Source: an uncultured Bacteroidales bacterium | GTDB lineage: Bacteria > Bacteroidota > Bacteroidia > Bacteroidales > UBA932 | Direction of reading: 5' to 3' | NCBI GenBank assembly: GCA_905233655.1 | Contig: CAJOCS010000003.1 | Span: forward strand, 1 to 64,000 | DNA length: 64,000 nucleotides | Shown: one piece after another, positions 7,934-30,125 of the stretch | Layout of the letters: each line of letters opens with the position of its first letter | How positions within the stretch are numbered: the stretch's first letter is position 1 | Program-made: the position numbers and the translations under genes | The notes under the pieces: model-generated | Told to the model about the DNA's origin: nothing | The model's input: only the letters and a program-made list of their open reading frames with translations | Databases searched by the model: none

Positions 7934-8805
7934 AACGTCTTCTCTTTGTTTTAGCCCTTGCTGCTACCCTCTGCGCCTGCTCAGAGAAAGACAACAGCCT
8001 GAAAATAGGGACATACAATATCCGTCTTATCAATAGCGGCGACCGTTCCGCCGGAAACGGATGGGAACAGCGCAGCCCATATCTCCTGGCCCTGCTCCGC
8101 TATGAGGCGCCGGATATATTCGGAGCTCAGGAAGTCCGTCCCGAACAGATTCCGGACATGACCGAAGCTCTCCCGGAATACGACTGGGTGGGCGTGGGAC
8201 GCGACGACGGTGCGGATAAAGGCGAATTCGTTCCCGTGTTCTGGCTTCGCGAACGCTTCGAAGCGCTCGACAAAGGCTGGTTCTGGCTAAGCGAAACTCC
8301 AGACGTTCCAGGAAAGGGCTGGGACGCCGCCTGCAACAGGGTATGTACCTGGGTGCACCTGAAAGACAGGAAATCCGGGAAAAAGATCTGGTTTTTCAAT
8401 CTTCACATGGACCACGTGGGCGTTGTGGCAAGGGAAGAAAGCGCGAAACTAATTGTGAGCAAAATAGAGCAGATGTGCCATGACGACGAGGTGGTTTTCG
8501 TCACCGGCGACTACAATGTCGACCAGAACGACAGCATCTTCAACATCTTTGAAGAGTCTTCCGTCCTGACCGATTCTTATGCCAAGGCAGCCGACCGTTT
8601 CATTCCCAACGGCACTTACAATGCCTTTGACGTAGGGAGATACACCGAGCTCAGGATAGACCATATTTTCGTCTCTCCTGCAGTGGACGTGGAGTTTTTC
8701 GCGGTCAGGACCGACATGTACTGGAGTGAGAATGAAGACGGGAGCTTCACTCCCAGAACGCCTTCAGACCACTATCCGGTGTTCATCAAGGCCAGGCTGG
8801 ACTAA
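7930..8805 (+). CDS. Endonuclease/exonuclease/phosphatase (EEP) family lipoprotein
   Basis: LKIGTYNIRLINSGD, FGAQEVRPEQI, FVTGDYNVDQND, RIDHIFVSP, PSDHYPVFI; lipobox LCAC; ATGA overlap with GH125. Confidence 0.9.
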   Translation: MKRLLFVLALAATLCACSEKDNSLKIGTYNIRLINSGDRSAGNGWEQRSPYLLALLRYEAPDIFGAQEVRPEQIPDMTEALPEYDWVGVGRDDGADKGEFVPVFWLRERFEALDKGWFWLSETPDVPGKGWDAACNRVCTWVHLKDRKSGKKIWFFNLHMDHVGVVAREESAKLIVSKIEQMCHDDEVVFVTGDYNVDQNDSIFNIFEESSVLTDSYAKAADRFIPNGTYNAFDVGRYTELRIDHIFVSPAVDVEFFAVRTDMYWSENEDGSFTPRTPSDHYPVFIKARLD

Positions 8806-11096: not shown

Positions 11097-12097
11097 TATT
11101 TTTCGATATTGGTGTTTCTGGTGAAATCAATAATCTCGCTCACGCGGCCGAAAGCAAGGGATGTAACGGTGTCGGCACATCCATAATAGATTGCGAGACG
11201 GCCTGTGGCGCTGTCGCAGAGGGCTGCGCAGGGAAAGGCCACATTGGGTACGTCTCCCACGCATTCGTAGGGAGTCTGGGGAGAAATCAGGTACGGGCCG
11301 CTGCGGGCGATTACCTTCCAGGGCTCGTCGAGGTCCAGGAGGGCGCTGCCGAAACTGTAGACATAGCCGTTGCAGCTGCGAAGCACTCCGTGATGGAAGA
11401 GGAGCCAGCCTTCGGATGTCTCGATAGGTATGGGACCTGCACCAATCTTCATGCACTGCCAGGCGCTCACTTCAAACGGAGCGGGCTGCATCACATGACG
11501 GTGGCGGCCCCAGAACTCCATGTCCGGAGATTCGCTGTAGAAAATGTCGCCGAATGCGGTGTGGCCGGTGTCGGAAGGACGGCTGAGCATGGCATAGCGG
11601 CCGCCTATCTTTCGCGGGAAGAGCACGCCGTTGCGGTTGTAGGGAAGGAAAGCGTTTTCCACCTGATGGAAGCTCTCGAAATCCTTCGTCCACGCCAGGC
11701 CGATGGTGGGGCCGTGATAGCCGTTGCACCATGACACCCAGTAGCGGTCTTCGATAAAGGTCACGCGGGGGTCGTAGCCATAGACCCACTGCCCAATTTC
11801 AGTGTCGTCGCAACTGAAACGGAGCACCTCGGGCTTGATATCCCAGTTGATACCGTCTTTGGAAAAGCCCACGTGAAGGGCCATGCGACGGTTACGGTCG
11901 TCACAGCGGAACACGCCGGCAAAACCGCCGCGGAACGGGACCACGGCGCTGTTGAATATGCTGTTGGAGTCCGGGAGCTGATTCCTTTTTATTATGGGAT
12001 TGGCGCTGTAACGCCACATTACCTCATTGCTTCCCGCGGGCCTTTCTTCCCAGGGGATGTTCGGGAGGGCTGCTCCCACTATCTTGAGTTCACTCAT
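11096..12097 (-). CDS. GH130 family beta-mannoside phosphorylase-like protein
   Basis: [105 protein letters not shown]. Confidence 0.92.
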
Positions 12098-13101
12098 CTG
12101 AGACTTGCTTTGAGTATTATCTTGTCCTTGTGTCCGGAAATGTCCTCCCCGGCGGCCTTCGCTTCGATGAGCTTCACCAGATACTCGGCCGCAGTGCTGG
12201 AAATGGCGGCGAGGGGCTGCTGCACGTGGGGAATGGGCGGACTGAACACATCGAATACGTTGGAATAGTCGAAGGAGACCAGCTTCACGTCCTGCTGGAT
12301 GCGCACGCCGCGGTTGAACAGAGCCTTTATAAGGGCCACGGAAGGAACGTTGGAGGCGGTAATAAGCCCGTCGATACCCATCTGGATAATCTTGTCGGCA
12401 AGGCGCTCGGCCTCTTCGTCAACCCTGTCGAAGGGCATTTTCCAGATAATGGCATCTTCACCCATGATGCGGCGGAAGGTCTCTTCACGGTCGGTCATGG
12501 AGGAGATTCTCATGGCATAGGAGACAAAGGCAATTTTGTTTACCCCCTGCTCCTTGAGGGCCTTTACGGCCTGCTCGGTGGCGTCGATGTTGTCCGTCAG
12601 GACGGAAGGAACGTCGAAATCCGGATGATGCCGGTCGATTACCACCAGCGGACGTCCGCTCTCCATGAGCTGCTTCACGCAGGGGCCGCTGCCGACGCAG
12701 GGAACCACTATGAAACCCTCAACATCCTTGTTGAGGAACGACTGCACAAGCTTGGAGAACTTCTCGGGATCTTCGTCGGAAGAGCCGAACAGCATGGTGT
12801 AACCGTGCTGGAAAGCCCAATTCTCAAGCTCACGGGCAATAATTCCGTAAAAGATGTTGGCCGTGTCGGACAGAATGACGCCGATGTCCCTTGTCCTTCC
12901 CTTGCGAAGCATCCTGGCGGCGCTGGAGGGGCGGTAGTTGAGCCTATTGGCCACTTCCAGAATGCGTTTCTTAGTATCCTCGCTCACGCGGTATTTCTGT
13001 TTTCCGTCGGCCCCTATCCTGTTGTTCATGACAAACGACACCAGGGCGATGGAAACACCGGCTTCACGAGCGATATCCTTGATGGTAATGTGCTTTGTCA
13101 T
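12094..13101 (-). CDS. LacI family transcriptional regulator
   Basis: N-terminal [23 protein letters not shown] helix-turn-helix, [32 protein letters not shown] overlap with GH130. Confidence 0.95.
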
Positions 13102-13184: not shown

Positions 13185-15161
13185 CTATTCGAGACCCCTT
13201 GCACGAAGCAGTGCGGAAGGATTGGGAGTAGAACCGCGGAAACTCTCGTAAAGTACCATGGGCTCTTCGCTGCCGCCTCTTTCAAGGAAGGTGCTGCGGA
13301 ATGCGTTGGCCACGTCGGGATTGAAGATGCCGTCCTCCTTGAACTTCTCCCAGGCGTCCACGGCGAGCACTTCGCTCCACAGATAGCTGTAGTAGCCGGC
13401 GCTGTATCCGCTGTTGAAGATGTGGTTGAAATAGGTGGTGCGGTAACGCGGGATAATCTCGTCGATAAGGCCCATCTCGGCGCAGACGCGGGCTTCGAAG
13501 TCGCGGATGCTCTGGGCGTCGGTCATCTGGTTGAGCTCATCCAGCGAAAGCTCGTGCCAGCGCATATCCAGGATGGATGCGGCGCAGAGTTCACCGGTAG
13601 TGAAGCCCTGGTTGAACTTGAGGGCGCTGGAAATCTTCTCCACGAGCTCGGGGCTGATAGGAGTGCCGTCGCGGTAATCGTTGGCGTAGAGTGCGAGTAT
13701 CTCCGGAACGAAAGCAAAATTCTCGTTGAACTGGGAGAACATCTCCACGAAATCGCGGGCCACAGAGGTGCCGCTAACGGTTTCGTAGGTGCACTGGCTC
13801 AGGAAGCCGTGAAGGGCATGGCCGAATTCATGGAAAGCGGTCTGCACATTGTCCACGGTGAGCAGCGAGGGCTGGTCGGCCGTAGGATAAGGGAAGTTGC
13901 AGACATTCACTATTACGGGGCGCACGCCGGCCTTCTGCTCGCGGAAGTTGTTCATCCACGCACCTCCCCTCTTGGTGGGACGCACATAGTAGTCGCGGTA
14001 GAAAATGCCGATGAGGGAGCCGTCGGCGTCGGTGAGCTTGTAGGCCTTGACGTCGGGGTTGTAGACCGCCACATCGGGAGCCTCCTCAATGTGGATGCCG
14101 TAGATGAGCTCAGCTGCGCAGAACACGCCCTTCAGCACGCTGTCGGCCTGGAAATAGGGCTTGGTGAGCGATTCGTCGAGGGCATAGCGCTGAGCGCGGA
14201 CCTTCTCGGCATAGTAGGAATAATCCCAGGGCTCGATGGGGTGGCCGGCGATTGCTTCCATGTCGGCAATCTCCTCGCGGGCCTTGGCCATCGCGGCGTC
14301 CATGATGGGCTGCAGAAAGGCGTCTACCCTGTCGGGGGTTTCGGCCATCTTGTCGTCCAGCTGATATGCGGCGAAGGAAGGGAAACCGAGGAGCTGTGCC
14401 TGCTCGGCCTTCAGACGGAGAATCTCCAGGACGATGGCGTTATTGTCGTATTCGTTGCCGTTGTTGCAGCGGGAAGAATAGGTACGGAACACCTGTTCGC
14501 GTTTTGCACGGTCGTCGCAGCTGGACATGAAGTCGTAGTACTCGGAGACGGTGATGCCGGTGAGGTCCTTGAAGGCATTGTTTTCTGCCAGGAGGTTCTG
14601 TCCGAATTTCTGCTGGAGGGTGGCCAGACGGGAGTTGATTTCGGAGAAACGGGCCTTCTTGTCGGGCTCGAGGTTTACACCGTTGCGGACAAAGCGCTGG
14701 TATATCTTCTTCACCACCATCTGCTGCTCGCGGGTAAGGGGTTCGTCGCCCTCATAGACCGCCTTAACGCGTTCGAAGAAGGCTTCGTTCATGAAGATGG
14801 CGTCCTCGGCCGCGGAAAGCATCGGCAGCACTTCTTCTTCGATGGCCTGCATCTCGGGAGTGGAATCGCTCTCGGAAAGGTTGAAGAACACTCCGCTCAC
14901 CTTTGCGAGAAGCTCGCCGGAATTTTCATACGCGGCGATGGTATTCTCGAAGGTGGGGGCATCGGGATTGTCGATTATGGCCTGGATTTCAGCACTCTGC
15001 TGTTCGATGCCGGCCTTGAAGGCTGGCATGTAGTGGGAAACCTTTATCTTCCCGAAGGGGGCGGTTCCGTAGGGGGTGTCCCACTCCTCGAAGAAGGGAT
15101 TTGCAGTGTTACAGGCAGTTATCATAAACAGGGCGCCGATTGCGGCGTAAAAAGCTTTCAT
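13185..15161 (-). CDS. dcp: M3 family metallopeptidase (peptidyl-dipeptidase Dcp-like), lipoprotein
   Basis: VQTAFHEFGHALHGFLS (HEXXH), YDFMSSCDDRAKREQVFRTYSSR, GYSAGYYSYLWSEVLAVDAWEKF; lipobox ITAC. Confidence 0.92.
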   Translation of the reverse strand: MKAFYAAIGALFMITACNTANPFFEEWDTPYGTAPFGKIKVSHYMPAFKAGIEQQSAEIQAIIDNPDAPTFENTIAAYENSGELLAKVSGVFFNLSESDSTPEMQAIEEEVLPMLSAAEDAIFMNEAFFERVKAVYEGDEPLTREQQMVVKKIYQRFVRNGVNLEPDKKARFSEINSRLATLQQKFGQNLLAENNAFKDLTGITVSEYYDFMSSCDDRAKREQVFRTYSSRCNNGNEYDNNAIVLEILRLKAEQAQLLGFPSFAAYQLDDKMAETPDRVDAFLQPIMDAAMAKAREEIADMEAIAGHPIEPWDYSYYAEKVRAQRYALDESLTKPYFQADSVLKGVFCAAELIYGIHIEEAPDVAVYNPDVKAYKLTDADGSLIGIFYRDYYVRPTKRGGAWMNNFREQKAGVRPVIVNVCNFPYPTADQPSLLTVDNVQTAFHEFGHALHGFLSQCTYETVSGTSVARDFVEMFSQFNENFAFVPEILALYANDYRDGTPISPELVEKISSALKFNQGFTTGELCAASILDMRWHELSLDELNQMTDAQSIRDFEARVCAEMGLIDEIIPRYRTTYFNHIFNSGYSAGYYSYLWSEVLAVDAWEKFKEDGIFNPDVANAFRSTFLERGGSEEPMVLYESFRGSTPNPSALLRARGLE

Positions 15162-15175
15162 ATCAGCCGGAATAA

Positions 15176-16315
15176 TTATTTAACGGAAACGGACGGGACG
15201 TCTACCAGCGAGAACTGTGCGGCGCCGCTGTAGATGGTCAGGATGCCGGTAATGGAAACCGGTGAACCACCGATCACAGAGGCAGGAAGCTCCTCGTCGG
15301 CAAACTTGGCGTAGCCGCTGGTGCGCACCTGAATGTTGGTGGAGCCCACCTTGAAGTAGTGCGACACGTAGTTTGCGGTGGCATACTTTATCATGATGTC
15401 CTTGTAGGTGAGGTCCTTGTCGGGGCCGAAGCTGTCGAGCACCTTGCCGGGCGCGAGCACCTCGGCGGGAGTCTTGAGAATGGAGCCGGCACCGTAACGG
15501 GTTGCACCGGAACCCACCTCTGCGGTATCCCATACACCAGCCTGAAGGTATTCGATGAACTTGGCCTTTGAACATGCCCAGGTATTGATTCCCCAGGTTC
15601 CATTGTCGGAGAGGAAAATACGGTTCTCGGGATTGGCGCTCTTGTGAGGGAGGTTCGGATTCGGATAGAACAGGGCGAATATCTGGTTACTATAGGTCAT
15701 ATTCTCTATGGTTACCAGCTTACCCCACAGTTCTCCGGTATAGCCGGCCGTGATGGCGGCCTTTACATCGGCCTCGGTGACCACTGCCGGAGCGACCGGG
15801 GTGCCATATTCCCCCTTGAACACATGCAGGTCGATTATGGCCTGGACGTCGATGTAGGAGGTCTCGTATTCGTTGGTGGAAGTATTGTCGGGCTCAAGGC
15901 CTAGCTGCGGCATGCCGTTGTAGGCGCCGAGCTGGAGATTGTCGCAGTAGACATACACCCACTGCCCAAGGGCGAACTCGCCGTAGAGGGCCGACTTGCC
16001 TATCTTGACGTCAATGCCGCCGGTGTTGTCCTGGATGTAGAGCTCACGGTAAATGTTGCCGGTGATATCCGTGGATATGACCTGACCCTTGATCCAGACA
16101 TTGCCGCTCACGCTGATTCCTCCGGTCCTGTACATGGCCTTGAGGTCTTTGATGGAAGTGAACGTTCCCGGGAAACCGGGGAGTTCAGACTCGGTGTAAA
16201 TCTTGAAACCTTCGGGCTGGGCGGGATTGCCCATAACAGGCTGCCATTCTTCTTTCAGACTCTGGCAGGAAACGGCCGCTGCAAGGGCCAAAATTGCGAT
16301 TAAAATCTTTTTCAT
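15176..16315 (-). CDS. DUF5689-like OB-fold lipoprotein
   Basis: Lipobox AVSC; SVSGNVWIKGQVISTDITGNIYRELYIQDNTGGIDVKIGKSALYGEFALGQWVYVYC; located directly after a TonB receptor. Confidence 0.75.
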   Translation of the reverse strand: MKKILIAILALAAAVSCQSLKEEWQPVMGNPAQPEGFKIYTESELPGFPGTFTSIKDLKAMYRTGGISVSGNVWIKGQVISTDITGNIYRELYIQDNTGGIDVKIGKSALYGEFALGQWVYVYCDNLQLGAYNGMPQLGLEPDNTSTNEYETSYIDVQAIIDLHVFKGEYGTPVAPAVVTEADVKAAITAGYTGELWGKLVTIENMTYSNQIFALFYPNPNLPHKSANPENRIFLSDNGTWGINTWACSKAKFIEYLQAGVWDTAEVGSGATRYGAGSILKTPAEVLAPGKVLDSFGPDKDLTYKDIMIKYATANYVSHYFKVGSTNIQVRTSGYAKFADEELPASVIGGSPVSITGILTIYSGAAQFSLVDVPSVSVK

Positions 16316-16318
16316 GGC

Positions 16319-19204
16319 TTAGAATCTGAAATAAATGTTGAGCATGTAATTGAATCCCGGCATATAGAAATACTTGGGGTCGAAACGGTAATAACGCTCC
16401 TTGGAAACGGTGTTGTCCACCAGACGGGTCTGTTCGTAACCGCCGGTCTTGACTTCCTTGTTGTTCAGGAGGTTCTTTGCATTGAGCGAGAATCCAAGCT
16501 GATACTTGCGCTGGATGTACCAGCTCTTTCCAACGGAAACGTTCACCAGCCATGCGGGCTTGAACATTTCCTGCCCGGTCATATAGGCAATCTCGGTGTC
16601 GGTGATGTTGTTGTCCAGACCAGCCACCGCGTTGTCGGTGCGGTAGAGCGGGTTCATATCGAGGTAGCTGCGGCCGAAGTATTCGACGTCGGCATCGATG
16701 AACCAGTAGTTGTAATTGTAGGCGAGGCCGAGGCTGGCTGCGGTCTGGGGCGTCGAAGGCACATAGTGCTTCTGGACGGTGCCGTCGAGGAGTTCAGTCT
16801 GCTTCCAGTACGAGACCAGCACGTCGGACATCACCACTTCGGCGCTGTTGTCAACGGTCTGCGTCATGTAGGGATTGGAAGTGTAGACATACTCGCCGAG
16901 TGCGAGGACACCCTGTACGGAGAGGTTCGGGACCAGATAGGTGGGCATCTTGAAACCGAGTTCAATACCCATGTTCCTCTGGTCGATACCGCGGATGGCA
17001 AAGTTGGAGAAGGCGTTCTGGAGGTCGTCATAGGCGCTCATAACCTTGCTCTGGTCCTTGATGGTGGTGTAGTAGGCCGTGGCCCTCACATTGATGCCGT
17101 TGCCGCTGTACTGCCAGTTCACGTCGGTCGAGAAGGTCTTGACGGTGGTGAGGCCGTCCATCATGGTATTGCGGGTACGGGGGCTCAGGAAGGCCTGGTT
17201 GAACTTGGGAGCGTCGGCAAAGTAGCCCACATTGGCATAAACCCTCTGGTTGCCGCCAATCACGTAGTTCACATTGGCCTTGGCTGCATATGTGATGAAT
17301 TTCGCAACCTTGGAACGGCCGTAAGAAGTGGTTACTTCGCCGTCGGGATCGTAGGTGGGTTCGATGGTCTGGCCGTCGACGATGAACTTGTTGCCGTTCT
17401 TGTCAAGTCCGGGGAACAGACCCTTGCGCAGCAGACCGTCCCTCCAGAAGGATTCATAGCCGATGCGTCCGCCGATGTCGGTGCTAAGGTTGCCGAACAC
17501 GAAATGGCCGTTGAGCCAGCCACCCGCGTTGCGGACCTGGGCAAGGTAGTCGTAACCGTATTTGTCGCCCTCGTGAAGGACTTCTGCGGCACCGTTGGCC
17601 ATATAGTAGTCGAGATCGTTCTGAAGCTTGTAGGGCGTGGCAGCGAAGTCACGCTCGGCGAAGTTGTCGGTGTTCAGGAAGTACTGACCGCCGAGGAGGT
17701 CGGCAACCGTCTTGAAGTATTCCGTGCGGTTGATGCGGACGGCAAAGCCGCCGGTGAGGGTGATCATCTCGTTGAGACGTGACTTGAAATTACCTGCGAG
17801 GTTGAAATCCCGCTGGTCTACACGGCGCTCCTCCTGGATGTATTTTGAGCGGCCGTTCTGCATGATGTTCACGCTGTAGAGGCGGTCCCAGTTGATGTGG
17901 GTGAGCTCAGGATAATCCTTCGCATGGGTCCACACCTCGTTCGCCCAACCCCACTTCATGGGATTGTTGCGGTTCATGTCAGTATTGCTGTCCATGAAGT
18001 AGCTGGGAAGATTGCGGTAATAGTCCGGGCGGGGGTCCTGGGCGTCGTACCAGTCAAGGGCGGTGTAGCCGTTGCGGCCGAAGCGGTAGAGGGCTGTGAG
18101 GCTGGCTTCGAACTGGGAGGAAGGAGTGAAATTCCACTTCACGAAAGCGATCGGTTCATTCGTCTTGCGAACACGGGCGTTGCGCACGCGACCGTTCTGG
18201 TAGCCCCAGTTGGAGTTGTACATATTGTCGCCCACCAGGTCGTAGACCTCCTGGGTGGAAGCGTTCTGGGCACCCCTCTCGCCGGGAGTGGCGAAGAAGG
18301 CGAAATTGAGGCTGTTGGCGTCGTTTATCACCTTGTCGGCGGCGAAATAATAGGCCAGCGAGCGGTAATACACACCATCAATCCAGTCGTTTCCGCCGAG
18401 GCGGGCGCTCACGTTCGCCGCAAAGGCCCAGCCGTTGTCCATAAGACCGGTGGCATAGGAGCCCATGACGCGGAGGCGGTAGAGGGAGCTGTTGGTGAGG
18501 ATGCTGCCGCGAAGGCCCTTGCGCATGGCTGCGGCATTGCCGAAGATGTTGGTCACACCGTTGTAGCCGCCGAATGCATAGTCAGAAATCTCGGCTCCGT
18601 TCACCGTTTCCTTGGTGCGCATCGCCTCGTTGAGGCCGCTCCAGAGGGAGAAGGGACCGTATCCCGTGATGGCGTCGTTCATTTTCACGCCGGCAAGCAG
18701 CACATCCTGGCTCTCGGAAGAATATCCGCGGGCGCGGAAACGTACCGAAGAGAAGTTGTAGCCGGCGATGTTGTTGAACACGTCGTTCGAGCCGAAGAGG
18801 ATGGTGGGATTGTCGTTGAATCCGCTGTCGTCCATATCGAAGGCTGCGAAGGAGTCGTCGTCCACTTCGGTCACGCGCTCGGTTGCGGTGAGCGAGAGGG
18901 TGAACATGTTCTTCACATATCCGTCATTCACGGTTACCTGCACCTGCGTCTGCAGGAAATCAGGAGCGTCGATGACCAGGGTGTACATGCCGTCCTCGAG
19001 GCCGTCGATGCGGAAAGTTCCGTCCTCCGCGCTCTCTGCGGTGGCAATCTCGGCCGCACCCTGGAAGAGGGTGAGCTTCGCTTTCTCCACCGGACTGCGG
19101 TCGGTACGGTTCACGACGGTTCCCCTTACGCCGCCGGTGGGCTGGGCCAGCACCAGGACGGACGTGAGTAACGCCGCAAAGGTCAGAATCAGTCGTTTAG
19201 TCAT
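16319..19204 (-). CDS. TonB-dependent receptor with carboxypeptidase-like regulatory domain
   Basis: GGVRGTVVNRTDRSPVEKAKLTLFQG..., plug-like segment, beta-rich body, terminal FNYMLNIYFRF. Confidence 0.9.
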   Translation of the reverse strand: MTKRLILTFAALLTSVLVLAQPTGGVRGTVVNRTDRSPVEKAKLTLFQGAAEIATAESAEDGTFRIDGLEDGMYTLVIDAPDFLQTQVQVTVNDGYVKNMFTLSLTATERVTEVDDDSFAAFDMDDSGFNDNPTILFGSNDVFNNIAGYNFSSVRFRARGYSSESQDVLLAGVKMNDAITGYGPFSLWSGLNEAMRTKETVNGAEISDYAFGGYNGVTNIFGNAAAMRKGLRGSILTNSSLYRLRVMGSYATGLMDNGWAFAANVSARLGGNDWIDGVYYRSLAYYFAADKVINDANSLNFAFFATPGERGAQNASTQEVYDLVGDNMYNSNWGYQNGRVRNARVRKTNEPIAFVKWNFTPSSQFEASLTALYRFGRNGYTALDWYDAQDPRPDYYRNLPSYFMDSNTDMNRNNPMKWGWANEVWTHAKDYPELTHINWDRLYSVNIMQNGRSKYIQEERRVDQRDFNLAGNFKSRLNEMITLTGGFAVRINRTEYFKTVADLLGGQYFLNTDNFAERDFAATPYKLQNDLDYYMANGAAEVLHEGDKYGYDYLAQVRNAGGWLNGHFVFGNLSTDIGGRIGYESFWRDGLLRKGLFPGLDKNGNKFIVDGQTIEPTYDPDGEVTTSYGRSKVAKFITYAAKANVNYVIGGNQRVYANVGYFADAPKFNQAFLSPRTRNTMMDGLTTVKTFSTDVNWQYSGNGINVRATAYYTTIKDQSKVMSAYDDLQNAFSNFAIRGIDQRNMGIELGFKMPTYLVPNLSVQGVLALGEYVYTSNPYMTQTVDNSAEVVMSDVLVSYWKQTELLDGTVQKHYVPSTPQTAASLGLAYNYNYWFIDADVEYFGRSYLDMNPLYRTDNAVAGLDNNITDTEIAYMTGQEMFKPAWLVNVSVGKSWYIQRKYQLGFSLNAKNLLNNKEVKTGGYEQTRLVDNTVSKERYYRFDPKYFYMPGFNYMLNIYFRF

Positions 19205-19210
19205 GGCAGC

Positions 19211-20290
19211 TTATTTTTTTATTACGATATACGTGGGATAGTGGTCGGAATAGCCGCCTACGAACGCACCGTTGGAGAAAGTGCGGAAAGGCGTGCCTTT
19301 GTACTGACCGCTCTGGTTGGTCATGAAGGGCTTCACGAACACGCGGCCGTAGTATTTACGCTTGGTGATGCGCTGAATCTGGAAGGTGCCTTCCGCTGCG
19401 TGGGCAAGATTGTCGTTCACCAGGATGCAGTCGTAGATATTGCGCTCTCCACGGTAATAGAGGGTGCTGTATCCATTGTCTAGCATGCTCCAGAAAGGAG
19501 AGAAGAAGTCGGTGGGAGTAACGTCGTCGATATTCCTGCGGCCGTGCATGTAGACCGCCATGGAATCGTCGAAGGGATTGTCGTTCATGTCGCCCATGAT
19601 GACGCACTTTATTCCGGGATAGCGCTGCATCATCTGCATCGCGTGGTTGTAAACGATTTCACCGCCGCGGGCACGGGTGTCCTGTCCCTTGCCGCCAAGA
19701 CGGGAAGGAAGGTGGCACACATAGAAGGCGAAATGCTCTCCGTCGATGATGCCGTGGACCATGAGGATGTCGCGGGTGCGGAAATTGGCCTGTTCCTCCT
19801 CGTTCATGGAGAACACGATATCGGAAGGGCTGAAGGTGAAGGGAATGGATTCACTTCCCACCAGCTGCATCATGGAAGGGTCGTAGAGCAGTGCCACATC
19901 CACGCCTCGGCGGTCCGGACCGTCGTAGTGGACTATCTGGTAGTTGGCATCGGCAATCGAGGGCTGGGCCACCAGATCTTCAAGGACGTGGCGGTTTTCA
20001 ACCTCGGAAACGCCAAGGACAGTATGCCATACACCGTTGTCGTTGTGCATCTCGGCAATGACACGGGCCATATTGCGGAGCTTTTTCTGATACTTCTCTT
20101 CGGTCCACTGGTTGGCGCCGTCGGGGAGATACTCGTAGTCGTTCTTCCCGTCGTCGTGGTAGGTGTCGAAGAGGTTCTCCAGGTTGTAGAAACCAATCAC
20201 ATGGCTGTGATGCCGCTTCGCCTGGGCCTGTACGGGCAGCAGCGCCGCAAACAGGGCGGCGAGCATGATGGAATACAGTATTTTTTTCAT
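19211..20290 (-). CDS. Endonuclease/exonuclease/phosphatase family protein, secreted
   Basis: VIGFYNLENLFDTYHDDGKNDYEYLPDG, VLGVSEVENRHVLEDL, HLPSRLGGK, CVIMGDMNDNPFDDS, GYSDHYPTYIVI. Confidence 0.92.
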   Translation of the reverse strand: MKKILYSIMLAALFAALLPVQAQAKRHHSHVIGFYNLENLFDTYHDDGKNDYEYLPDGANQWTEEKYQKKLRNMARVIAEMHNDNGVWHTVLGVSEVENRHVLEDLVAQPSIADANYQIVHYDGPDRRGVDVALLYDPSMMQLVGSESIPFTFSPSDIVFSMNEEEQANFRTRDILMVHGIIDGEHFAFYVCHLPSRLGGKGQDTRARGGEIVYNHAMQMMQRYPGIKCVIMGDMNDNPFDDSMAVYMHGRRNIDDVTPTDFFSPFWSMLDNGYSTLYYRGERNIYDCILVNDNLAHAAEGTFQIQRITKRKYYGRVFVKPFMTNQSGQYKGTPFRTFSNGAFVGGYSDHYPTYIVIKK

Positions 20291-20311
20291 AGGAATCTGG
20301 TTATTATCGCG

Positions 20312-21499
20312 TTATTTCCACCATTTGGACGGAGCTGCGGCCTCGATGGCATCGGCCGATTCCTTTCCCACATAATCTGCAAGATGGGGGAAGAAATCTA
20401 TTCCGGTGGTCTGTTCGAGCTCGTCCACGGACATGATATAGTCAAGGAAGTCCCCATCGTGTATGGATTTGTCGTGGGGAAGGAGGTAGGCCGCCGCCAT
20501 GAAGCCTCTGGTGGCATAAGTGGATGTTCCACGGAAGAGCAGGGCCTTGAAATAATGGGTGGGAATCTTCACGGCAAAGCCCGAAGAAGTCCCGGACGTA
20601 CGGGTGGAATTCTTGTAAAGACAACCCGTAACGACATAAAGAGTGTCGGAAAGGGCGGCATAACTGCGCACCCTGCCTTCGAGGTTCCCCCAGATTTCGC
20701 CGTTGAAGTCGTAGTCCTGTGGCGTCATGTTGGTGGGGACGAAGGTGGAGGCGTTTGCCGCATAAGTTGCAAGGCGGTCGGCCGACGGCAACTGGTGGCC
20801 GCGCGTCCATCCCCCGCCGTAGGAGCCGTTGCTTATGTTCGGCTGGATGCTGGTGGGCAGGAGGGGGTCGTAACCCCAGGCGTTGGAACGCGAACCGCTG
20901 CCCTTGAGGGAGTTGTTGAGAGGGTATGCGACCCAGAGGGAGAGGTGCTCGCTGTAGTCCCAGTAGCAGGACCAGTTGCGCACGCCGCTCTGGGCTTTGG
21001 AAACGTATTTGCCGCCATCCATGGCATGGACAAGGACTTCGAGGCCGTCGCCCGCGACGGTGGCGGGAAGCTCGAGCCAGTCCATGGGGGCCACATCGAA
21101 ACCATACTGTCCGCCGCCGGGATTCACAGAACCTCCCTCTCCGGCCTGCTGTACGGTCTTGCGGACGGTGACCCCGTTCTTGGGGACAAGGACAAGTGTC
21201 AGGCTGCGGGACTCCTCACCCTCGTTGCTTTCGAAGCGGAGCCTCACGTCTCCTTTTGAACCAGTGCCCGAAGAGGGTTCCACGCTGGCCCAGGCCGATG
21301 CGCCGCCCTCGAACTCCACCGAGAGAGTCCATTCGTACTTCGCAGTCACAGAAACGAAAGTACTGCCGCCCTCCGCGGGGAGAGTGGACACCTTCAGGCC
21401 GATGGCTGTCGCGGAATCAAACTCCGCCTCGGGGGTTTTGGTGCATGCGGCCGCAATGGTTGCGGCAAGAAGCAGCAAAAGAACTCTTTTCCCTGACAT
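20312..21499 (-). CDS. DNA/RNA non-specific endonuclease (NUC1-type) with N-terminal BACON-like domain, lipoprotein
   Basis: BACON-like LPAEGGSTFVSVTAKYEWTLSVE; nuclease core GGWTRGHQLPSADR...NMTPQDYDFNGEIWGNLEGRVR; lipobox AAAC. Start moved to MSGKRVL. Confidence 0.85.
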   Translation of the reverse strand: MSGKRVLLLLLAATIAAACTKTPEAEFDSATAIGLKVSTLPAEGGSTFVSVTAKYEWTLSVEFEGGASAWASVEPSSGTGSKGDVRLRFESNEGEESRSLTLVLVPKNGVTVRKTVQQAGEGGSVNPGGGQYGFDVAPMDWLELPATVAGDGLEVLVHAMDGGKYVSKAQSGVRNWSCYWDYSEHLSLWVAYPLNNSLKGSGSRSNAWGYDPLLPTSIQPNISNGSYGGGWTRGHQLPSADRLATYAANASTFVPTNMTPQDYDFNGEIWGNLEGRVRSYAALSDTLYVVTGCLYKNSTRTSGTSSGFAVKIPTHYFKALLFRGTSTYATRGFMAAAYLLPHDKSIHDGDFLDYIMSVDELEQTTGIDFFPHLADYVGKESADAIEAAAPSKWWK

Positions 21500-21519
21500 T
21501 GTCTTTTTAATCGATAAAA

Positions 21520-21560
21520 CCCGAAAAGGGTGTCCGGCCGGAGCCGGACATCCCTTCGGG
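21520..21560 (-). terminator. Hairpin terminator downstream of the 21579-24107 gene
   Basis: Arms CCCGAAaaGGGtGTCCGGC / GCCGGACatCCCTTCGGG followed on the minus strand by TTTTATC. Confidence 0.7.
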
Positions 21561-21578
21561 ATTAAAAACAAACTGACG

Positions 21579-24107
21579 CTACTTTACGACAATGGTCATC
21601 TTGGTCACGCGGACCTGGCCATTGGTGGCCGTGCCGGAGTTGCCCACAGCGAACGTGGTGCACTGGGCGACAGACTGGCCGGATTGCACAACCGAACCGT
21701 CAGAGGCGAGGAGTACACCGGTATTCTGGCTGGCATATTCAACTGTTACGGAGACAATCTGCTTGTCGGCACAGGTGAAGCTCAGTGTTGCATTTTCGGA
21801 CTGATACAGACGCCACTGGTTTCCGGAAGTATAGTACTTGCCGCTGTTGCCACCACCGGTAACGGTAGCTGTCACGCCGTCTACGGTAACAGTCTTGTAC
21901 TGCTTGCTGTTTTCCCAGCCGTTAGCGGTAGCAACCGTTGCAATATCGATTACAACCTCGGTCTCGTCTCCTGCCTGGCTCATGTCGCGGGCTTCGAAGA
22001 AGCTCTGCTCGGGGTCGTTGGAGACGATGGGATTAACGTCAGAGCCATACATATTGATGGCGAAGTAATACTTGGTACCAGGCACAAGATCCTCATACCA
22101 TCCGGCGCCGTCAGCGCTGCCGGGATAGGTATCGATAGAAGTGGCGTCGGGAGCCAGGCGGCCCATTGCGGCATACACCACACCGTCTTCGGCCTCATCG
22201 CTTACACGATAGAGCGTCCAGGCATAGTAGACGATGTTCTCCGCACTCACATTCGTAGTCCAGGAAGCGGTGAAACCGTTCTCGGTCTGCCTGATGGAAG
22301 TGACATTGAGAACCGGAGCTGGATCGCCGCCGTCGGTTACGCCGTTAAGGCTGTAGATATAGGCCTCCTTGCTGGCGGTCTCGGGGGTACCGTTGTAGTT
22401 TGTGAGCTTGCCGCAGATGATCACCTCGTCGCCCACTTTGACCTGGGTGTCGCCCTCGGCCCATGCACGGTTGTTCAGGTAAAGCACGGCGTAAACCTGG
22501 AACTGGGTGGTTCCGCTGGCCTCTCCGCTTTCGGAGATGTTGAAGGTGGCGGTGCCGTGCTCGGCATCGAAGGTGTACTTCACGGAAGAAATCTTACCCT
22601 TCACATATACGTCGTTCGGGGTCTTTGCGCCCTTATCAAGTGAGGAAGCCAGATCCAGGGCAGCCTTCGGGTTGTAAGGATTGGCGAGGGTGCCGTCGCC
22701 CTTGGGCTCGTCCTGAGGAGCGGGAGTGCCGCCTTCGCAGGAAATTATGATAGCCTGGACGATTTCGGGCTGCTGGGTGCCGTCCGTCTTCTTGTAAAGC
22801 TGGTATTTACCGGCGAGAACAATCGTTGCGCCGTCGTTGATCTTGTTTACCCAGTCGGTCTTGTTGGCTACGCTGTAGACGTAGATGGTGCCGGTGGCGT
22901 CGGTGAGATCGAAGCTGCAGTACTGGGAATTGAAATTGGAAACGGTACCGGTGAGCTTGTAGTAGTTCTGCTCGTCGCCCTTGGCGATAAGATCCGCAAC
23001 AGTGATTGCGGGCGCGGCGTTCGGGTCGACTTCCTCGCCGCCTTCGCAGGAGAGGATAACCGCGTTCACAACCTCGTGCTGCTGGTTCTTCTCATAATAT
23101 GCATACTTACCGGCGAGGGTGACGGTTGCACCGTCCTTGATCTTGGAGGACCAGTCGGCACTGTTGTCCACGCTGTAGACGTAGATGGTGCCGGAGTCGT
23201 CGGTGAGGTCGAAGCTGCAGTACTGGGAGTTGAACCTGGAGACCTTACCGGTGAGCTTGTAGTAATTGTTCTTGTCGGCCGCAGAAATGAATTCGGCAAC
23301 GGTCTTTGCAGGGACCTTCGAGTAGTCGATTTCCTCTCCGCCGGTAGCCACGGTCTTGCCGTTGAGGGAATAGAGGTATGAACCCTTCTGGACAGTCTCG
23401 GGGGTATTGCCCTTGAAGTTCATGAGTTCGCCGTAAATGACCACGACGTCGCCGGGATTGATCTGCTCGTTGCCGTTCTGCCACTTCTTGTTCTCGAGGT
23501 AGAGCACGCGGTAGCAGGTTAACTGGGCGCCATCGGCGGAGCCGTCGTCGGAAATGACGAATTCGGCGTTGCCGTACTCTGTGGAATAGGCTTCCTTGAT
23601 GGAAACGATCTTACCCTTCACATAATAGGGACCAACCTTTTCGTAATTGGTGTTGTCCGTGTAGGAGAGGTTCTTCACCGCATCGCATGCCTGTTCGACG
23701 GAGAAGGGGCTGTCCTTGGAGCCGTCTCCTTCCTCGACGACATAAGGGCCGAGCTCACCCAGCTGCTTGACGGTGAGAGGGGCCTTCATCATGCCGATGG
23801 AAATCTCGATGACTGCCTGACGGTCGTTGCCGGGGTTTGCGGCCACCGAAACCGTGAGCGTCTGTTCCTTGGAGCTGGCCTGCCCTTCCGTTGCGCTCAT
23901 GGCGATCCATTCGGGAAGTTCTCCGACGATGAACCAGTCGCGGGTGGCGACGAAGGTTACCGTTTTGCTGTCCTCACCCTTGTCGAGAGTGATTACAGCG
24001 TCGGTGATGGAAATCCTTGCACCACCGAGGTCCTCCTCCTTGTCATCACATGAAAAGAGGGCTGCCAGAGCGGCAACTGAGAGGACGAAAAAGTGTCTGA
24101 GTTTCAT
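21579..24107 (-). CDS. Large surface lipoprotein with BACON-like domain and four OB-fold-like modules in A-B-B-A order
   Basis: Lipobox LFSC; BACON-like segment; modules GSKDSPFSVEQACDA...YLYSLNG, two tandem copies of NYYKLTGxVSxFNSQYCSFDLTDxxGTIYVYSV..., then GTLANPYNPKAA...YIYSLNG. Confidence 0.8.
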   Translation of the reverse strand: MKLRHFFVLSVAALAALFSCDDKEEDLGGARISITDAVITLDKGEDSKTVTFVATRDWFIVGELPEWIAMSATEGQASSKEQTLTVSVAANPGNDRQAVIEISIGMMKAPLTVKQLGELGPYVVEEGDGSKDSPFSVEQACDAVKNLSYTDNTNYEKVGPYYVKGKIVSIKEAYSTEYGNAEFVISDDGSADGAQLTCYRVLYLENKKWQNGNEQINPGDVVVIYGELMNFKGNTPETVQKGSYLYSLNGKTVATGGEEIDYSKVPAKTVAEFISAADKNNYYKLTGKVSRFNSQYCSFDLTDDSGTIYVYSVDNSADWSSKIKDGATVTLAGKYAYYEKNQQHEVVNAVILSCEGGEEVDPNAAPAITVADLIAKGDEQNYYKLTGTVSNFNSQYCSFDLTDATGTIYVYSVANKTDWVNKINDGATIVLAGKYQLYKKTDGTQQPEIVQAIIISCEGGTPAPQDEPKGDGTLANPYNPKAALDLASSLDKGAKTPNDVYVKGKISSVKYTFDAEHGTATFNISESGEASGTTQFQVYAVLYLNNRAWAEGDTQVKVGDEVIICGKLTNYNGTPETASKEAYIYSLNGVTDGGDPAPVLNVTSIRQTENGFTASWTTNVSAENIVYYAWTLYRVSDEAEDGVVYAAMGRLAPDATSIDTYPGSADGAGWYEDLVPGTKYYFAINMYGSDVNPIVSNDPEQSFFEARDMSQAGDETEVVIDIATVATANGWENSKQYKTVTVDGVTATVTGGGNSGKYYTSGNQWRLYQSENATLSFTCADKQIVSVTVEYASQNTGVLLASDGSVVQSGQSVAQCTTFAVGNSGTATNGQVRVTKMTIVVK
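22730..23340 (-). repeat. Intragenic tandem repeat with 300-bp (100-aa) period
   Basis: cgctgtagacgtagatggtgccgg...cggtgagRtcgaagctgcagtactggga occurs at about 22871 and again at about 23171. Confidence 0.85.
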
Positions 24108-25165: not shown

Positions 25166-25285
25166 TTGAGTTTTCAGTGTTATTCCGTTATTGTGATATT
25201 GTCTTCTTTACAAAAAGCAAATATAACACTTTTACGCCGATAATAAAACTCTTTTTTTCCGACAATTATGGTTATATTTGCAGAT

Positions 25286-26893
25286 ATGAACCACATAATG
25301 AGCGCAAACGAATTCGATGTCATTATCATCGGCGGAGGCATCACCGGCGCAGGCACCCAGAGGGACTGCACAATGAGGGGGCTGCGAACGCTTCTCATCG
25401 AACGCACCGACATTGCAACCGGGGCCACCGGCCGCAACCACGGCCTGCTGCACTCCGGCGCACGCTATGCAGTGAACGACGCCGAGAGCGCCCGTGAATG
25501 CATCGAAGAAAACATGATTCTCCGAAAGATTGCCTCGCACTGCATAGACGAGACCGACGGACTGTTCATTACCCTGCCGGAAGACGACCTCGGGTATCAG
25601 CAGACCTTTGTCGACGCCTGCCGCAGCGCCGGCATCGCCGCGGAAATAATCGACCCCGACCTTGCCCGTAGACTTGAGCCTTCGGTGAATCCGGCCCTCA
25701 TCGGCGCAGTGAAAGTGCCGGACGGCAGCGTGGATCCTTTCCGCCTGTGCGCGGCCAATATGCTGGACGCAAAGCTCCATGGCGGCCAGGTCCGTCTGTA
25801 CACCGAAGTCACCGGTTTCATCCGCGAGGGAGACCGAGTTAAGGGTGTCCACACCCTTAACCACCAGACCGGAGAGCAGGAGGATTACTTCGCCCCGGTG
25901 ATTGTGAACGCCTGCGGAATATGGGGCCATCACATAGCGGAAATGGCCGGAGTGAACGTGGGCATGTTCCCCGCCAAGGGTTCGCTCCTGATTTTCGCCC
26001 ACAGGGTGAACAATGTGGTAATAAACCGCTGCCGAAAGCCCTCCAATGCCGATATTCTCGTTCCCGGAGATACCGTGTGCGTGATTGGAACCACCTCCAC
26101 CCGCATACCCTTCGAGGAGTGCGACAACGTGGCCGTTACGCCCGATGAGGTGGACCTTCTGATAAACGAAGGCGCGAAACTGGCGCCCTCCCTCGCATCG
26201 ACGAGGATACTGCGCGCCTACGCCGGCGTCCGCCCCCTTGTGAGTGCCGACAACGACCCTTCGGGACGCAACATCTCCCGCGGAATAGTGTGCCTGGACC
26301 ACGAAGAGAGGGACGGGCTGAAGGGCTTTGTCACCATAACCGGCGGCAAGCTCATGACATACCGCCTTATGGCCGAAATGGCAACCGATACCGTGTGCCG
26401 CAAGCTAGGAGTGGACAAGGCCTGCGAAACCGCCGTCACTCCCCTTCCCGGCTCGGAAGAGCGCTCCTACGAAGCCGTGGCGCAGAAAATCTGGGAGTCG
26501 CCGTCGACCGCCCAGAAAGCCGCCGCATCCCGCATGGGAACGCGCGCAAGGCGTATCCGCAGCGAAAACCGCCTGGACAACGCCCTCATCTGCGAATGCG
26601 AAGAGGTGTCGGTCGGAGAGGTTAACGCCGCAATCGAAAGACTGGACGTCTCCACCCTCACAGATCTCAGGCGACGCACCCGAATCGGCATGGGAACATG
26701 TCAGGGTGAATTCTGCGCCTGCCGCGCCGCCGGGCTTCTCGCGAAGGCCCACGGATGCATCGAAAAGGAGCGGGCCGACCTCTCCGACTTCCTTCAGGAA
26801 CGATGGAAAGGCAATTTCCCCATCGGCTGGGGAGATACTCTGCGCGAAGCCGAATACACACAGTGGGTCTATAAACACGTTCTGGGGCTATGA
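25286..26893 (+). CDS. glpA: Anaerobic glycerol-3-phosphate dehydrogenase subunit A
   Basis: FDVIIIGGGITGAGTQRDCTMRGLRTLLIER, GRNHGLLHSGARYAVND, C-terminal BFD-like ICECEEVSVGEVNAAIE...GTCQGEFCACR. -7 box TATATTTG immediately upstream. Confidence 0.93.
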   Translation: MNHIMSANEFDVIIIGGGITGAGTQRDCTMRGLRTLLIERTDIATGATGRNHGLLHSGARYAVNDAESARECIEENMILRKIASHCIDETDGLFITLPEDDLGYQQTFVDACRSAGIAAEIIDPDLARRLEPSVNPALIGAVKVPDGSVDPFRLCAANMLDAKLHGGQVRLYTEVTGFIREGDRVKGVHTLNHQTGEQEDYFAPVIVNACGIWGHHIAEMAGVNVGMFPAKGSLLIFAHRVNNVVINRCRKPSNADILVPGDTVCVIGTTSTRIPFEECDNVAVTPDEVDLLINEGAKLAPSLASTRILRAYAGVRPLVSADNDPSGRNISRGIVCLDHEERDGLKGFVTITGGKLMTYRLMAEMATDTVCRKLGVDKACETAVTPLPGSEERSYEAVAQKIWESPSTAQKAAASRMGTRARRIRSENRLDNALICECEEVSVGEVNAAIERLDVSTLTDLRRRTRIGMGTCQGEFCACRAAGLLAKAHGCIEKERADLSDFLQERWKGNFPIGWGDTLREAEYTQWVYKHVLGL

Positions 26894-28017
26894 GGTTTGA
26901 TACTGTTATAATAGGCGGAGGCCTGGCCGGACTGGTTTCCGGAATAAGTCTCCAGAAAGAAGGCCGGAACTGTGCCATAATAAGCACGGGACAGAACGCC
27001 CTGCATTTTTTCTCCGGCAGCTTCGAGTCCATGGAAGAGGCTCCGGCCAGGGTTATAGAGCTTTTCGACCAGGCAGGCGTGAGGCTTCACTACCGCGAAG
27101 GAGTGAGGCTAATGCCCATGGGAACGTTTCGCCCTGCCGCCCTGTCGCTTGAAGACACCGACCTTTTCCCCGAGCACAAATTCGCCCGGAAGGTCTTGAT
27201 AGTGAACTTCCTGGGATATCACGATTTCTTCTCCTCCTTCCTTGCGGAGGGCCTGGAAAAGCAGGGCATGCAATGCCGGATACGCCTTCTCAACCTGCCC
27301 GAAATGGAGCAGCTGGAACAGAGCCCCAGCGAGATGCGCTCGGTTCAGATTGCACGCACTATGGACCGCGTGTGGGAGAAACTGGTGCAGGAAGTGAGAG
27401 TCCTTCTCAAAGACGAAGACTGCGTGATTCTCCCCCAGGTTTTCGGCCTCAGGGACACTTCGGTTCCTTCCAAAATCCGCCAGGGCATTCCGGCCCGCGT
27501 GGTATTTGCCGGGACCCTTCCGCCCTCGGTTCCCGGAGTCCGTACCCAGATGCTGCTGAAACGGCGTTTCGAACTTCTTGGCGGCACCTATCTTATGGGC
27601 GACGAAGTGATTGACGCCCACGTCCACGACGGCCTGGTGCACAGCCTGGTAACCAGAAATTTCGACAGTCACTACATAGAGGCCGAGAATTTCATCCTCG
27701 CCAGCGGGAGCTATTTCTCGAAGGGCCTCAGGTCCAATCCCACAAGTGTTTTCGAACCGGTTTTCGGGCTGGACGTGGAATTCCCCACCGACCGTAACCT
27801 CTGGTACAACCCGCTCTTCGCCGAAGACCAGCCATACATGCACTATGGGGTGAAAACGGACGAAAACCTGCATGCCGTCAAGGACGGAGTCGCCTTCAAA
27901 AACCTGTTTGCGATAGGCTCCGTACTGGGCGGCACCCGCCCCGAATTCGGTTCGGCCGCAGGTCTGGCCATCCGCAGCGCCCTTAACGTAGCAGACCAAA
28001 TACTCGGAAAACAATGA
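26890..28017 (+). CDS. glpB: Anaerobic glycerol-3-phosphate dehydrogenase subunit B
   Basis: FDTVIIGGGLAGLVSGISLQKEGRNCAIISTGQNALHFFSGS; ATGA overlap with glpA. Confidence 0.92.
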   Translation: MRFDTVIIGGGLAGLVSGISLQKEGRNCAIISTGQNALHFFSGSFESMEEAPARVIELFDQAGVRLHYREGVRLMPMGTFRPAALSLEDTDLFPEHKFARKVLIVNFLGYHDFFSSFLAEGLEKQGMQCRIRLLNLPEMEQLEQSPSEMRSVQIARTMDRVWEKLVQEVRVLLKDEDCVILPQVFGLRDTSVPSKIRQGIPARVVFAGTLPPSVPGVRTQMLLKRRFELLGGTYLMGDEVIDAHVHDGLVHSLVTRNFDSHYIEAENFILASGSYFSKGLRSNPTSVFEPVFGLDVEFPTDRNLWYNPLFAEDQPYMHYGVKTDENLHAVKDGVAFKNLFAIGSVLGGTRPEFGSAAGLAIRSALNVADQILGKQ

Positions 28018-29234
28018 TGCAGGAATTTACTGAAAGCAGGCACAATTTTGAAGAGTGCATGAAATGCACCGTGTGCACGGCCTACTGCCCCGTGCTTCAG
28101 GTGAATCCGCTGTACCCCGGCCCCAAGCAGGCCGGACCCGACGGAGAGAGGCTACGCCTGAAAGACCCCTACTTCTTCAATTACGCGCTCAAATACTGCA
28201 TGAACTGCAAGCGCTGCGAGGTGGCCTGCCCTTCCGGAGTGAGGGTGGCCGACCTCATCCAGAGCGCCCGTATTAAGTACGACAAATCGGCTCCCAAGCT
28301 TCGCGACCGCATTCTCGCATCCACCGATTTCATGGGCAGGCTGGCCCGGCCCTTCGCCCCGATAGTGAACGGAGTCACAAGCCTTGGCGTAACCAAGACC
28401 GTACTTGACGCCACCATGAAGATAGACCACCACCGCAGTTTTCCCAAATACAGCGCCCGCAGCTTCGAGCGCTGGCTGGGCAGGCGCGCGAAAGAGCAGG
28501 CGGCCTTCCCCGAACAGGTGGCATACTTCCATGGCTGTTACGTGAACTACAACTATCCCCAGCTCGGCAAAGACCTCGTGAAGGTTCTGAATGCACTCGG
28601 GGTGGGCGTGCAGCTCCTGGACAAGGAGAAATGCTGCGGGATTGCCATGATTACCAACGGTATGACAGGGCTTGCCACGCGTCATGCCCAGCATAATGTA
28701 GAGGTCCTTGGCAAGGCAGTGGACAACGGGCTCAAAGTGGTCACCACCTCTTCCACCTGCGTCTTCACCCTCCGGGACGAGTATCCCCATCTTCTGGGCG
28801 TGGACAACTCGGCGGTGAGGGAATCGCTCCTGATTGCCACCCGCTTCATTTTCGAAAAGCTGGAAAAAGGCGCGCAGCTCCATTTCCGGGACGACTTCCA
28901 CATGAAGGTCGCCTACCACACTCCCTGCCACATGGAAAGGATGGGGTGGGGCGTGTTCTCCGAAAAACTGCTCCGGATGATTCCCGGGGTGGAATTCACG
29001 CTTTTGGATTCGGCCTGCTGCGGCATTGCCGGAACCTATGGATTCAAGAAAGAGAACTACCAGGCTTCCCAGGAGATTGGCCAGGCCCTTTTCGACCAGA
29101 TTGCACGAGTGGCTCCCGACGTGGTGGCCTGCGACTGCGAGACCTGCAAGTGGCAGATTGAAATGTCCACCGGCTTCAAGGTTATGAATCCGGTATCCAT
29201 ACTTGCGGAAGCCCTGAAAACCGACGAAGATTAA
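28014..29234 (+). CDS. glpC: Anaerobic glycerol-3-phosphate dehydrogenase subunit C (Fe-S)
   Basis: CMKCTVCTAYCPV and CMNCKRCEVACPSGV ferredoxin motifs, CCxG motifs KEKCCGIAM and SACCGIAGTYG; ATGA overlap with glpB. Confidence 0.93.
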   Translation: MMQEFTESRHNFEECMKCTVCTAYCPVLQVNPLYPGPKQAGPDGERLRLKDPYFFNYALKYCMNCKRCEVACPSGVRVADLIQSARIKYDKSAPKLRDRILASTDFMGRLARPFAPIVNGVTSLGVTKTVLDATMKIDHHRSFPKYSARSFERWLGRRAKEQAAFPEQVAYFHGCYVNYNYPQLGKDLVKVLNALGVGVQLLDKEKCCGIAMITNGMTGLATRHAQHNVEVLGKAVDNGLKVVTTSSTCVFTLRDEYPHLLGVDNSAVRESLLIATRFIFEKLEKGAQLHFRDDFHMKVAYHTPCHMERMGWGVFSEKLLRMIPGVEFTLLDSACCGIAGTYGFKKENYQASQEIGQALFDQIARVAPDVVACDCETCKWQIEMSTGFKVMNPVSILAEALKTDED

Positions 29235-29246
29235 AACAAACACCAT

Positions 29247-30125
29247 ATGAAAGCACGTACATTTGTCCTTGCATCGGCCCTGATCCTGGCGGCCGGATGC
29301 GGAGATAATAAGCCTTATATCGACGTACAGGCCCATCGCGGCGGCGCCGGACTGATGCCGGAGAACACCATTACGGCCATGCGTAACGCAATCGACCTCA
29401 AGGTCAACACCCTGGAATTCGACCTGCAGCTAAGCTCCGACGGCCAGGTGGTGGTCTCGCACGACAACTACTTCCATCCCCGTTACGCCACCCGTCCAGA
29501 CGGCACCCTCATTCAGGCCGACGACCCCAAGGAATACCTCTACACCATGCCCTACGACAGCATCGCCAAATACGATGTGGGCATGCGTCCGAGCGAGGTA
29601 TGGCCAGGCCAGGCCAATATCGCCGACATTAAACCGCTTGCAAGCGATCTTATCGACTTCGCGGAGGGCTACGCCAAAAAACCGGTGAACTACAATATTG
29701 AAATCAAGTCCTGGCCCGGCGACGGCGAAGGGACTTTATGGCCGGACTATGTGACGTTCTGCGACACCTGCATCCCTCTCCTTCTGTCGAAGAACCTTGG
29801 AGACCGGCTGATTGTCCAGTGTTTCGACACCCGGGCCCTAGAATACATGCATGAGAAATGGCCGGAACTCATTCTCTCCTACCTTACCGACGAGGATGAG
29901 CCCGACATCGAGGAGATTCTCTCGAACCTCAGTTTCACACCGCGCTGGTGGAGCCCCCACTACAGCGTGGTTACGGCCGAAAACGTGGCCCGCTGCCACG
30001 AGCTCGGAATAGGCGTGGTTCCCTGGACAGTTGACGACCCGCTTGAAATGATGCGTCTCGTGCAGTGCGGAGTAGACGCCATCATCTCCAATTATCCCGA
30101 CCTCCTGATTCAAATCGTACGCTGA
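29247..30125 (+). CDS. Glycerophosphodiester phosphodiesterase family protein, lipoprotein
   Basis: VQAHRGGAGLMPENTITAMRNAIDLKVNTLEFDLQLSSDGQVVVSHDN; lipobox AAGC. Confidence 0.93.
   Translation: MKARTFVLASALILAAGCGDNKPYIDVQAHRGGAGLMPENTITAMRNAIDLKVNTLEFDLQLSSDGQVVVSHDNYFHPRYATRPDGTLIQADDPKEYLYTMPYDSIAKYDVGMRPSEVWPGQANIADIKPLASDLIDFAEGYAKKPVNYNIEIKSWPGDGEGTLWPDYVTFCDTCIPLLLSKNLGDRLIVQCFDTRALEYMHEKWPELILSYLTDEDEPDIEEILSNLSFTPRWWSPHYSVVTAENVARCHELGIGVVPWTVDDPLEMMRLVQCGVDAIISNYPDLLIQIVR

Follow-up and report, generated by a model that had tools for sequence, protein, structure and literature searches.

A Bacteroidales operon encoding a TonB-dependent transporter and two nucleases is a candidate DNA importer related to the Riemerella transformation locus

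The window analysed here is a stretch of 64,000 nucleotides (nt) from an uncultured Bacteroidales bacterium of the GTDB lineage UBA932 (positions 1 to 64,000 of contig CAJOCS010000003.1, assembly GCA_905233655.1). Five consecutive open reading frames (ORFs) on its minus strand encode a TonB-dependent transporter (TBDT), two nucleases and two further lipoproteins. The locus is best read as a Bacteroidales variant, equipped with nucleases, of a little-known Riemerella anatipestifer module that is required for natural transformation. In the direction of transcription, the genes are:

21579-24107, minus strand: surface lipoprotein of 842 residues with a BACON domain (PF13004, 5e-8) and OB-fold repeats (PF01336, 5.2e-16; PF13742, 1.2e-15)
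20312-21571, minus strand: lipoprotein of 419 residues with BACON and Endonuclease_NS (NUC1) domains (PF01223, 1.7e-36)
19211-20290, minus strand: exported nuclease of 359 residues, Exo_endo_phos_3 (EEP) family (5.9e-86)
16319-19204, minus strand: TBDT of 961 residues, orthologue of RA0C_RS04915 (CarboxypepD_reg, 1.3e-11; fold from AlphaFold2 and Foldseek)
15176-16315, minus strand: DUF5689 lipoprotein of 379 residues, counterpart of RA0C_RS04920 (PF18942, 9.1e-43)

The intergenic gaps are 3-21 nt, or 79 nt where the NUC1 gene is taken to start at its internal ATG, and the five genes form one operon running from 24107 to 15176 on the minus strand. An earlier note, made from the DNA letters alone, had described these five consecutive genes and proposed a cell-surface locus for harvesting nucleic acids. 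Its description of the genes held up, beginning with the ORFs themselves, which lie where it had placed them. The OB fold of the 842-residue lipoprotein is supported by PF01336 (tRNA_anti-codon) and PF13742, each matching three stretches; its lipobox, LFSC followed by DDKEED as read from the sequence, has acidic residues after the cysteine, and a sequence search of the PDB gave no match. In the NUC1 protein the BACON match is borderline (26.2 bits against a cut-off of 25), and the start is more likely the ATG at 21499, which the lipobox AAAC follows, than the TTG at 21571. The EEP protein has a signal peptide and no lipobox, while the DUF5689 protein has the lipobox AVSC followed by QSLKEEW.

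The earlier note had also likened the layout to that of a polysaccharide utilization locus (PUL). SusC/SusD loci do share with this operon a CarboxypepD_reg TBDT, surface lipoproteins and degradative enzymes encoded together. However, a PUL could be rejected, as the domain search found no SusD among seven proteins and no carbohydrate-active enzyme in the operon, the enzymes being Endonuclease_NS, Exo_endo_phos_3 and a peptidase M3 encoded by a sixth gene. The degradative enzymes of the five-gene set are nucleases, and domain models gave the TBDT no SusC-type match.

The 961-residue protein, which the earlier note had called a TonB-dependent receptor, matched neither the Plug nor the TonB_dep_Rec model of Pfam. 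A sequence search of the PDB found only its CarboxypepD_reg domain, so a structure prediction was needed. Foldseek matched the AlphaFold2 model (pLDDT 86.7, pTM 0.80) to plugged TonB-dependent transporters, with PqqU as the best hit (E 9.5e-33) and FecA, FhuA and BtuB among the others. As judged from this model, the protein is a plugged TonB-dependent transporter.

In R. anatipestifer, RA0C_RS04915 (an outer-membrane protein with CarboxypepD_reg) and RA0C_RS04920 (DUF5689 plus DUF5017) are adjacent genes, and markerless deletion of either abolishes natural transformation, to below detection against 5.4e-5 (PMC8459023). ComEC, DprA, RecA and an HhH protein are also essential; in the authors' proposal RS04915 is the passage for DNA, and they mark the nuclease that processes double-stranded DNA as unidentified (PMC8459023). 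Mutation of either tonBA or tonBB lowers transformation, and iron uptake is not impaired in the tonBA mutant (PMC8383284). These published genetics, on essentiality and on the need for TonB, concern Riemerella only.

The window TBDT aligns with RS04915 end to end at 28% identity (E 8e-102), and the window EEP is 29% identical (E 2e-58) to the EEP encoded next to RS04915. In the Riemerella genome that we examined (G493), the gene row reads recA, dinB, sdhB, sdhA, sdhC, comEC, one ORF, a carboxyl transferase gene (accD), EEP, TBDT and DUF5689 plus DUF5017. If recA is RS04870 and each gene adds five, comEC becomes RS04895, the TBDT RS04915 and the DUF5689 gene RS04920, exactly as published, and the EEP gene would be RS04910. 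The distances to comF and dprA likewise agree with RS05105 and RS05130, and a protein with three HhH motifs is encoded near the position expected for RS02645. The identity of the G493 locus as RS04915/RS04920 rests on this gene-count arithmetic. Locus L110, which carries the label Chryseobacterium gleum MAG, was not used to represent Weeksellaceae. Both loci have a CarboxypepD_reg TBDT followed by a DUF5689 lipoprotein, with an EEP adjoining, the TBDTs being full-length orthologues, and in both genomes ComEC, DprA and HhH proteins are encoded elsewhere. By position and sequence, the core of EEP, TBDT and DUF5689 is orthologous to the Riemerella locus. The Riemerella locus differs in that its EEP gene is divergent, its DUF5689 protein carries a C-terminal DUF5017 that the window protein lacks, comEC is four genes away, and NUC1 and the OB/BACON lipoprotein are absent, whereas the window has all five genes in one operon. 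A role as an adhesin was considered and set aside: an R. anatipestifer adhesion study gives CLR, a carboxypeptidase-regulatory-like outer-membrane protein that may or may not be RS04915, as one of its CD46-interacting candidates.

When RS04915 was searched against the window genome and its genus-mates, the single TBDT orthologue was the best match in each, and in the window genome it was the sole match, so that the two proteins pair one to one; one genus-mate (G013) adds a weak second TBDT of 70 bits, and the second-best match inside Riemerella itself scores 64 bits. Across 393 Bacteroidota genomes, the TBDT profile separated full-length orthologues (at least about 640 bits) from other, mostly partial, TBDT matches (235 bits or less), and the two orthologues outside this split had matches broken into two pieces. 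In the tree, for which branch support is SH-aLRT only, the orthologues form one group ordered by lineage and the paralogues stand separately. By these comparisons the family has one copy per genome and stands apart from other TBDTs.

Could the transporter instead be an ordinary TonB nutrient receptor for an unrelated ligand, with an indirect Riemerella phenotype (through the envelope or signalling) and nucleases that are neighbours by chance? Glycans, peptides, cobalamin or siderophores are the usual cargo of TBDTs with surface lipoproteins, as the Foldseek neighbours illustrate. Ligands other than nucleic acids are also within reach of OB and BACON folds, and passage of DNA is so far a proposal. 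We consider this explanation improbable, given a TBDT family that is set apart in this way and deletions of either Riemerella gene that abolish transformation rather than merely lower it. Nor is the position of the EEP gene a matter of chance: it lies just upstream of the TBDT gene in 95 of 123 Bacteroidota loci, although genomes hold only 2-3 EEP genes, and each of the 12 genomes checked had an EEP gene at the TBDT locus.

Two side observations concern the TBDT. A sister family, paralogous to the orthologues, is encoded at L244:8894-11509 (P. gingivalis-type), L100:2-2527 and L173:1642-4284; the P. gingivalis member has no EEP or DUF5689 gene alongside, and in L173 the sister gene and the true orthologue lie about 3.8 kb apart. 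This family may be a second DNA transporter or merely another receptor. Within single genera of Weeksellaceae, there are TBDTs about 58% identical to the query in the N-terminal part and about 42% in the barrel, while congeners are 74% or 48% identical throughout, so that distinct allelic types seem to exist.

The EEP nuclease retains the catalytic motifs NLEN, EVEN, HLPS, GDMND and SDH, as read from its sequence. Its gene is divergent from the TBDT gene in most lineages and co-directional in the window's genus (10 of 10) and in two genomes of f26, a related Bacteroidales family. The DUF5689 gene, 3 nt behind the TBDT gene in the window, follows the TBDT gene on the same strand in 121 of 130 Bacteroidota loci; a few genomes were counted twice in this survey and in that of EEP. 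The Riemerella transformation paper does not name the EEP (PMC8459023), which we regard as a new conserved candidate part of the module, with a presumed role in uptake. A plasmid-borne EEP system was also sought, and the 13 distant plasmid records found gave no sign of one. One f26 genome (G298) has a second EEP gene a few kb from the locus (L175:15067-16083).

Foldseek matched the model of the DUF5689 protein (pLDDT 74) mostly to OB-fold nucleic-acid-binding proteins (RPA, Asn/AspRS, HIN, MCM10, RMI). These matches are weak (best E 4.4e-3); the OB fold, which the earlier note had given to this DUF5689-like lipoprotein, is tentative. A gene for a small lipoprotein separates the TBDT and DUF5689 genes in Flavobacterium-like genomes (L169:7427-8008, L171:8041-8688), an arrangement also reported for F. 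columnare (PMC8459023).

The earlier note had named a lack of OB folds and a non-conserved gene order as grounds for refutation, and on both the outcome favoured its observation. The window's family, f26 and Porphyromonas have genes for NUC1 and the OB/BACON lipoprotein beside the conserved core. The loci that bear them form one clade in the TBDT tree, except for one long-branched f26 row, which is consistent with a single gain; the two genes are additions of one Bacteroidales branch. By sequence, NUC1 is related to Anabaena NucA (6e-23), EXOG, EndoG and the Serratia nuclease, and has TRGH in place of the DRGH motif. Homologues carry D, T, S, A or N at the first position with RGH kept, and human EXOG has S there, so that nuclease activity is plausible. 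Pneumococcal EndA, a nuclease that acts at the cell surface when DNA is taken up for transformation, belongs to the same Endonuclease_NS family (PF01223), as do NucA, EXOG and EndoG. Unlike these, the window protein combines TRGH with a BACON domain, a lipobox and a place in a Gram-negative operon.

Secreted nucleases of the NUC1 family commonly remove biofilm or neutrophil-trap DNA, and the window enzyme is a surface-type lipoprotein. The locus might on this basis remodel extracellular DNA at the cell surface or serve in defence there, with the TBDT importing breakdown products. We think this very improbable, since the locus survey found the conserved core without NUC1 in most lineages and none of the five proteins has a PADLOC match. 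A role in anti-phage defence was rejected on the same PADLOC result.

We lean towards the interpretation that the operon specifies an outer-membrane DNA importer, powered by TonB, that works in natural transformation and feeds ComEC. In such a scheme, the OB/BACON and DUF5689 lipoproteins would capture extracellular DNA at the surface, and the surface-anchored NUC1 endonuclease would cut it into shorter pieces or create ends. Gated by TonB, the TBDT would let the DNA through to the periplasm, where the exported EEP might trim or otherwise process the duplex. A chromosomally encoded ComEA-like HhH protein and ComEC would then carry single strands to the cytoplasm for DprA and RecA.

The same parts could serve nutrition, binding, cutting and importing DNA or oligonucleotides that are broken down in the periplasm for phosphate, nitrogen or nucleosides, with recombination incidental. 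Two nucleases with surface binders resemble the degrade-and-import layout of PULs, a surface-anchored non-specific nuclease fits feeding better than gene uptake, and the carriers include uncultured and gut-type Bacteroidales without known competence; feeding on imported DNA would also use the same import step as transformation. We nonetheless find scavenging rather unlikely. Transformation of Riemerella requires both core proteins, which implies that long DNA must pass, and EEP, TBDT and DUF5689 are kept in lineages without NUC1. No nucleotidase or nucleoside-transporter gene was noticed in the neighbourhoods read, these families not having been searched systematically. Removal of phosphate lowers transformation in Riemerella, the opposite of what a phosphate-scavenging switch would give, in the one species studied (PMC8383284). 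The surface nucleic-acid locus of the earlier note, with its OB-fold lipoproteins and phosphodiesterases, is thus well supported, but foraging in the manner of a PUL is not the best account of it. With a core orthologous to the Riemerella transformation locus, the best reading moves from harvesting to DNA import for transformation.

The window genome encodes ComEC (1.6e-49), DprA (1.5e-64) and a double-HhH protein. ComEC is, however, present in 382 of the 393 Bacteroidota genomes, so these genes show capacity and not function, and the co-occurrence of TBDT and ComEC lends no support to a DNA importer. Several further points weigh against it. The EEP was not recovered in a screen of 3,000 Riemerella mutants, and F. 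johnsoniae has homologues yet showed no competence in the conditions used (PMC8459023, PMC7965970). The match of the window DUF5689 protein to RS04920 (E 5e-11) is limited to about 100 residues. Competence has not been reported for the window species, whose genome is 83% complete. The P. gingivalis genome G744, which we take to be ATCC 33277, has only a distant paralogue of the TBDT (144 bits), with no DUF5689 or EEP gene beside it. Strain ATCC 33277 shows natural competence, which depends on ComEA and ComEC (PMC11532111), so that not all competent Bacteroidales use this module.

The TBDT orthologue is present in 120 of 120 Weeksellaceae, in 101 of 198 Bacteroidales genomes and in 18 of 26 Porphyromonas (17 full-length and one fragment). 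The module, though widespread, is not the sole route. The Riemerella study had found homologues of RS04915 in Flavobacteriaceae only (PMC8459023); our comparison also finds the module in about half of the Bacteroidales genomes sampled, gut-type lineages included.

A wider proposal, put forward tentatively and with slightly less than even confidence, is that EEP, TBDT and DUF5689 are the Bacteroidota counterpart of the type IV pilus. Duplex DNA would cross the outer membrane through a TonB-driven transporter, with Exo_endo_phos_3 as the missing processing nuclease, and one Bacteroidales branch would have gained an endonuclease at the surface and OB-fold proteins that catch DNA. The type IV pilus and secretin of other Gram-negatives fill the same step, in which DNA crosses the outer membrane and reaches ComEA and ComEC, but have no sequence relation to the gated TonB transporter seen here. 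In P. gingivalis the route of DNA into the periplasm remains unclear (PMC11532111). In the open-access literature we found neither a nucleic-acid-utilization locus with a TBDT and a nuclease nor a follow-up study on RS04915. The two nucleases can now be named as testable missing parts of uptake. A TonB-gated DNA importer, if confirmed, would add a new way of importing macromolecules and offer resistance genes a path of spread in the gut.

Two further features belong to the operon:

24190-24160, minus strand: Bacteroidota-type promoter TTTG-N19-TATATTTG, a consensus match 53 nt before the first gene
13185-15161, minus strand: peptidase M3 (Dcp-like) lipoprotein (PF01432, 3.7e-128)

The promoter motif occurs four times in the window against 0.26 expected, and apart from the operon promoter it has no match between 13 and 24 kb. 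The peptidase M3 gene, the sixth of the operon, starts 14 nt downstream of the DUF5689 gene. In the neighbourhoods compared, it was found in several genus-mates and not in other lineages, and is probably a passenger kept only within the genus.

Downstream, at 8802-13101 on the minus strand, a GH92 alpha-mannosidase, a GH130 mannooligosaccharide phosphorylase and a LacI regulator make up a small cluster for mannoside use. On the plus strand at 25268-30125, two FAD oxidoreductases, a CCG/4Fe-4S protein (GlpABC-like) and a GDPD phosphodiesterase look like an anaerobic glycerol-3-phosphate dehydrogenase cluster. In Riemerella, a type II CRISPR locus (L201:14491-19899), with ORFs that are Cas9-, Cas1- and Cas2-like in appearance, directly follows the transformation genes.

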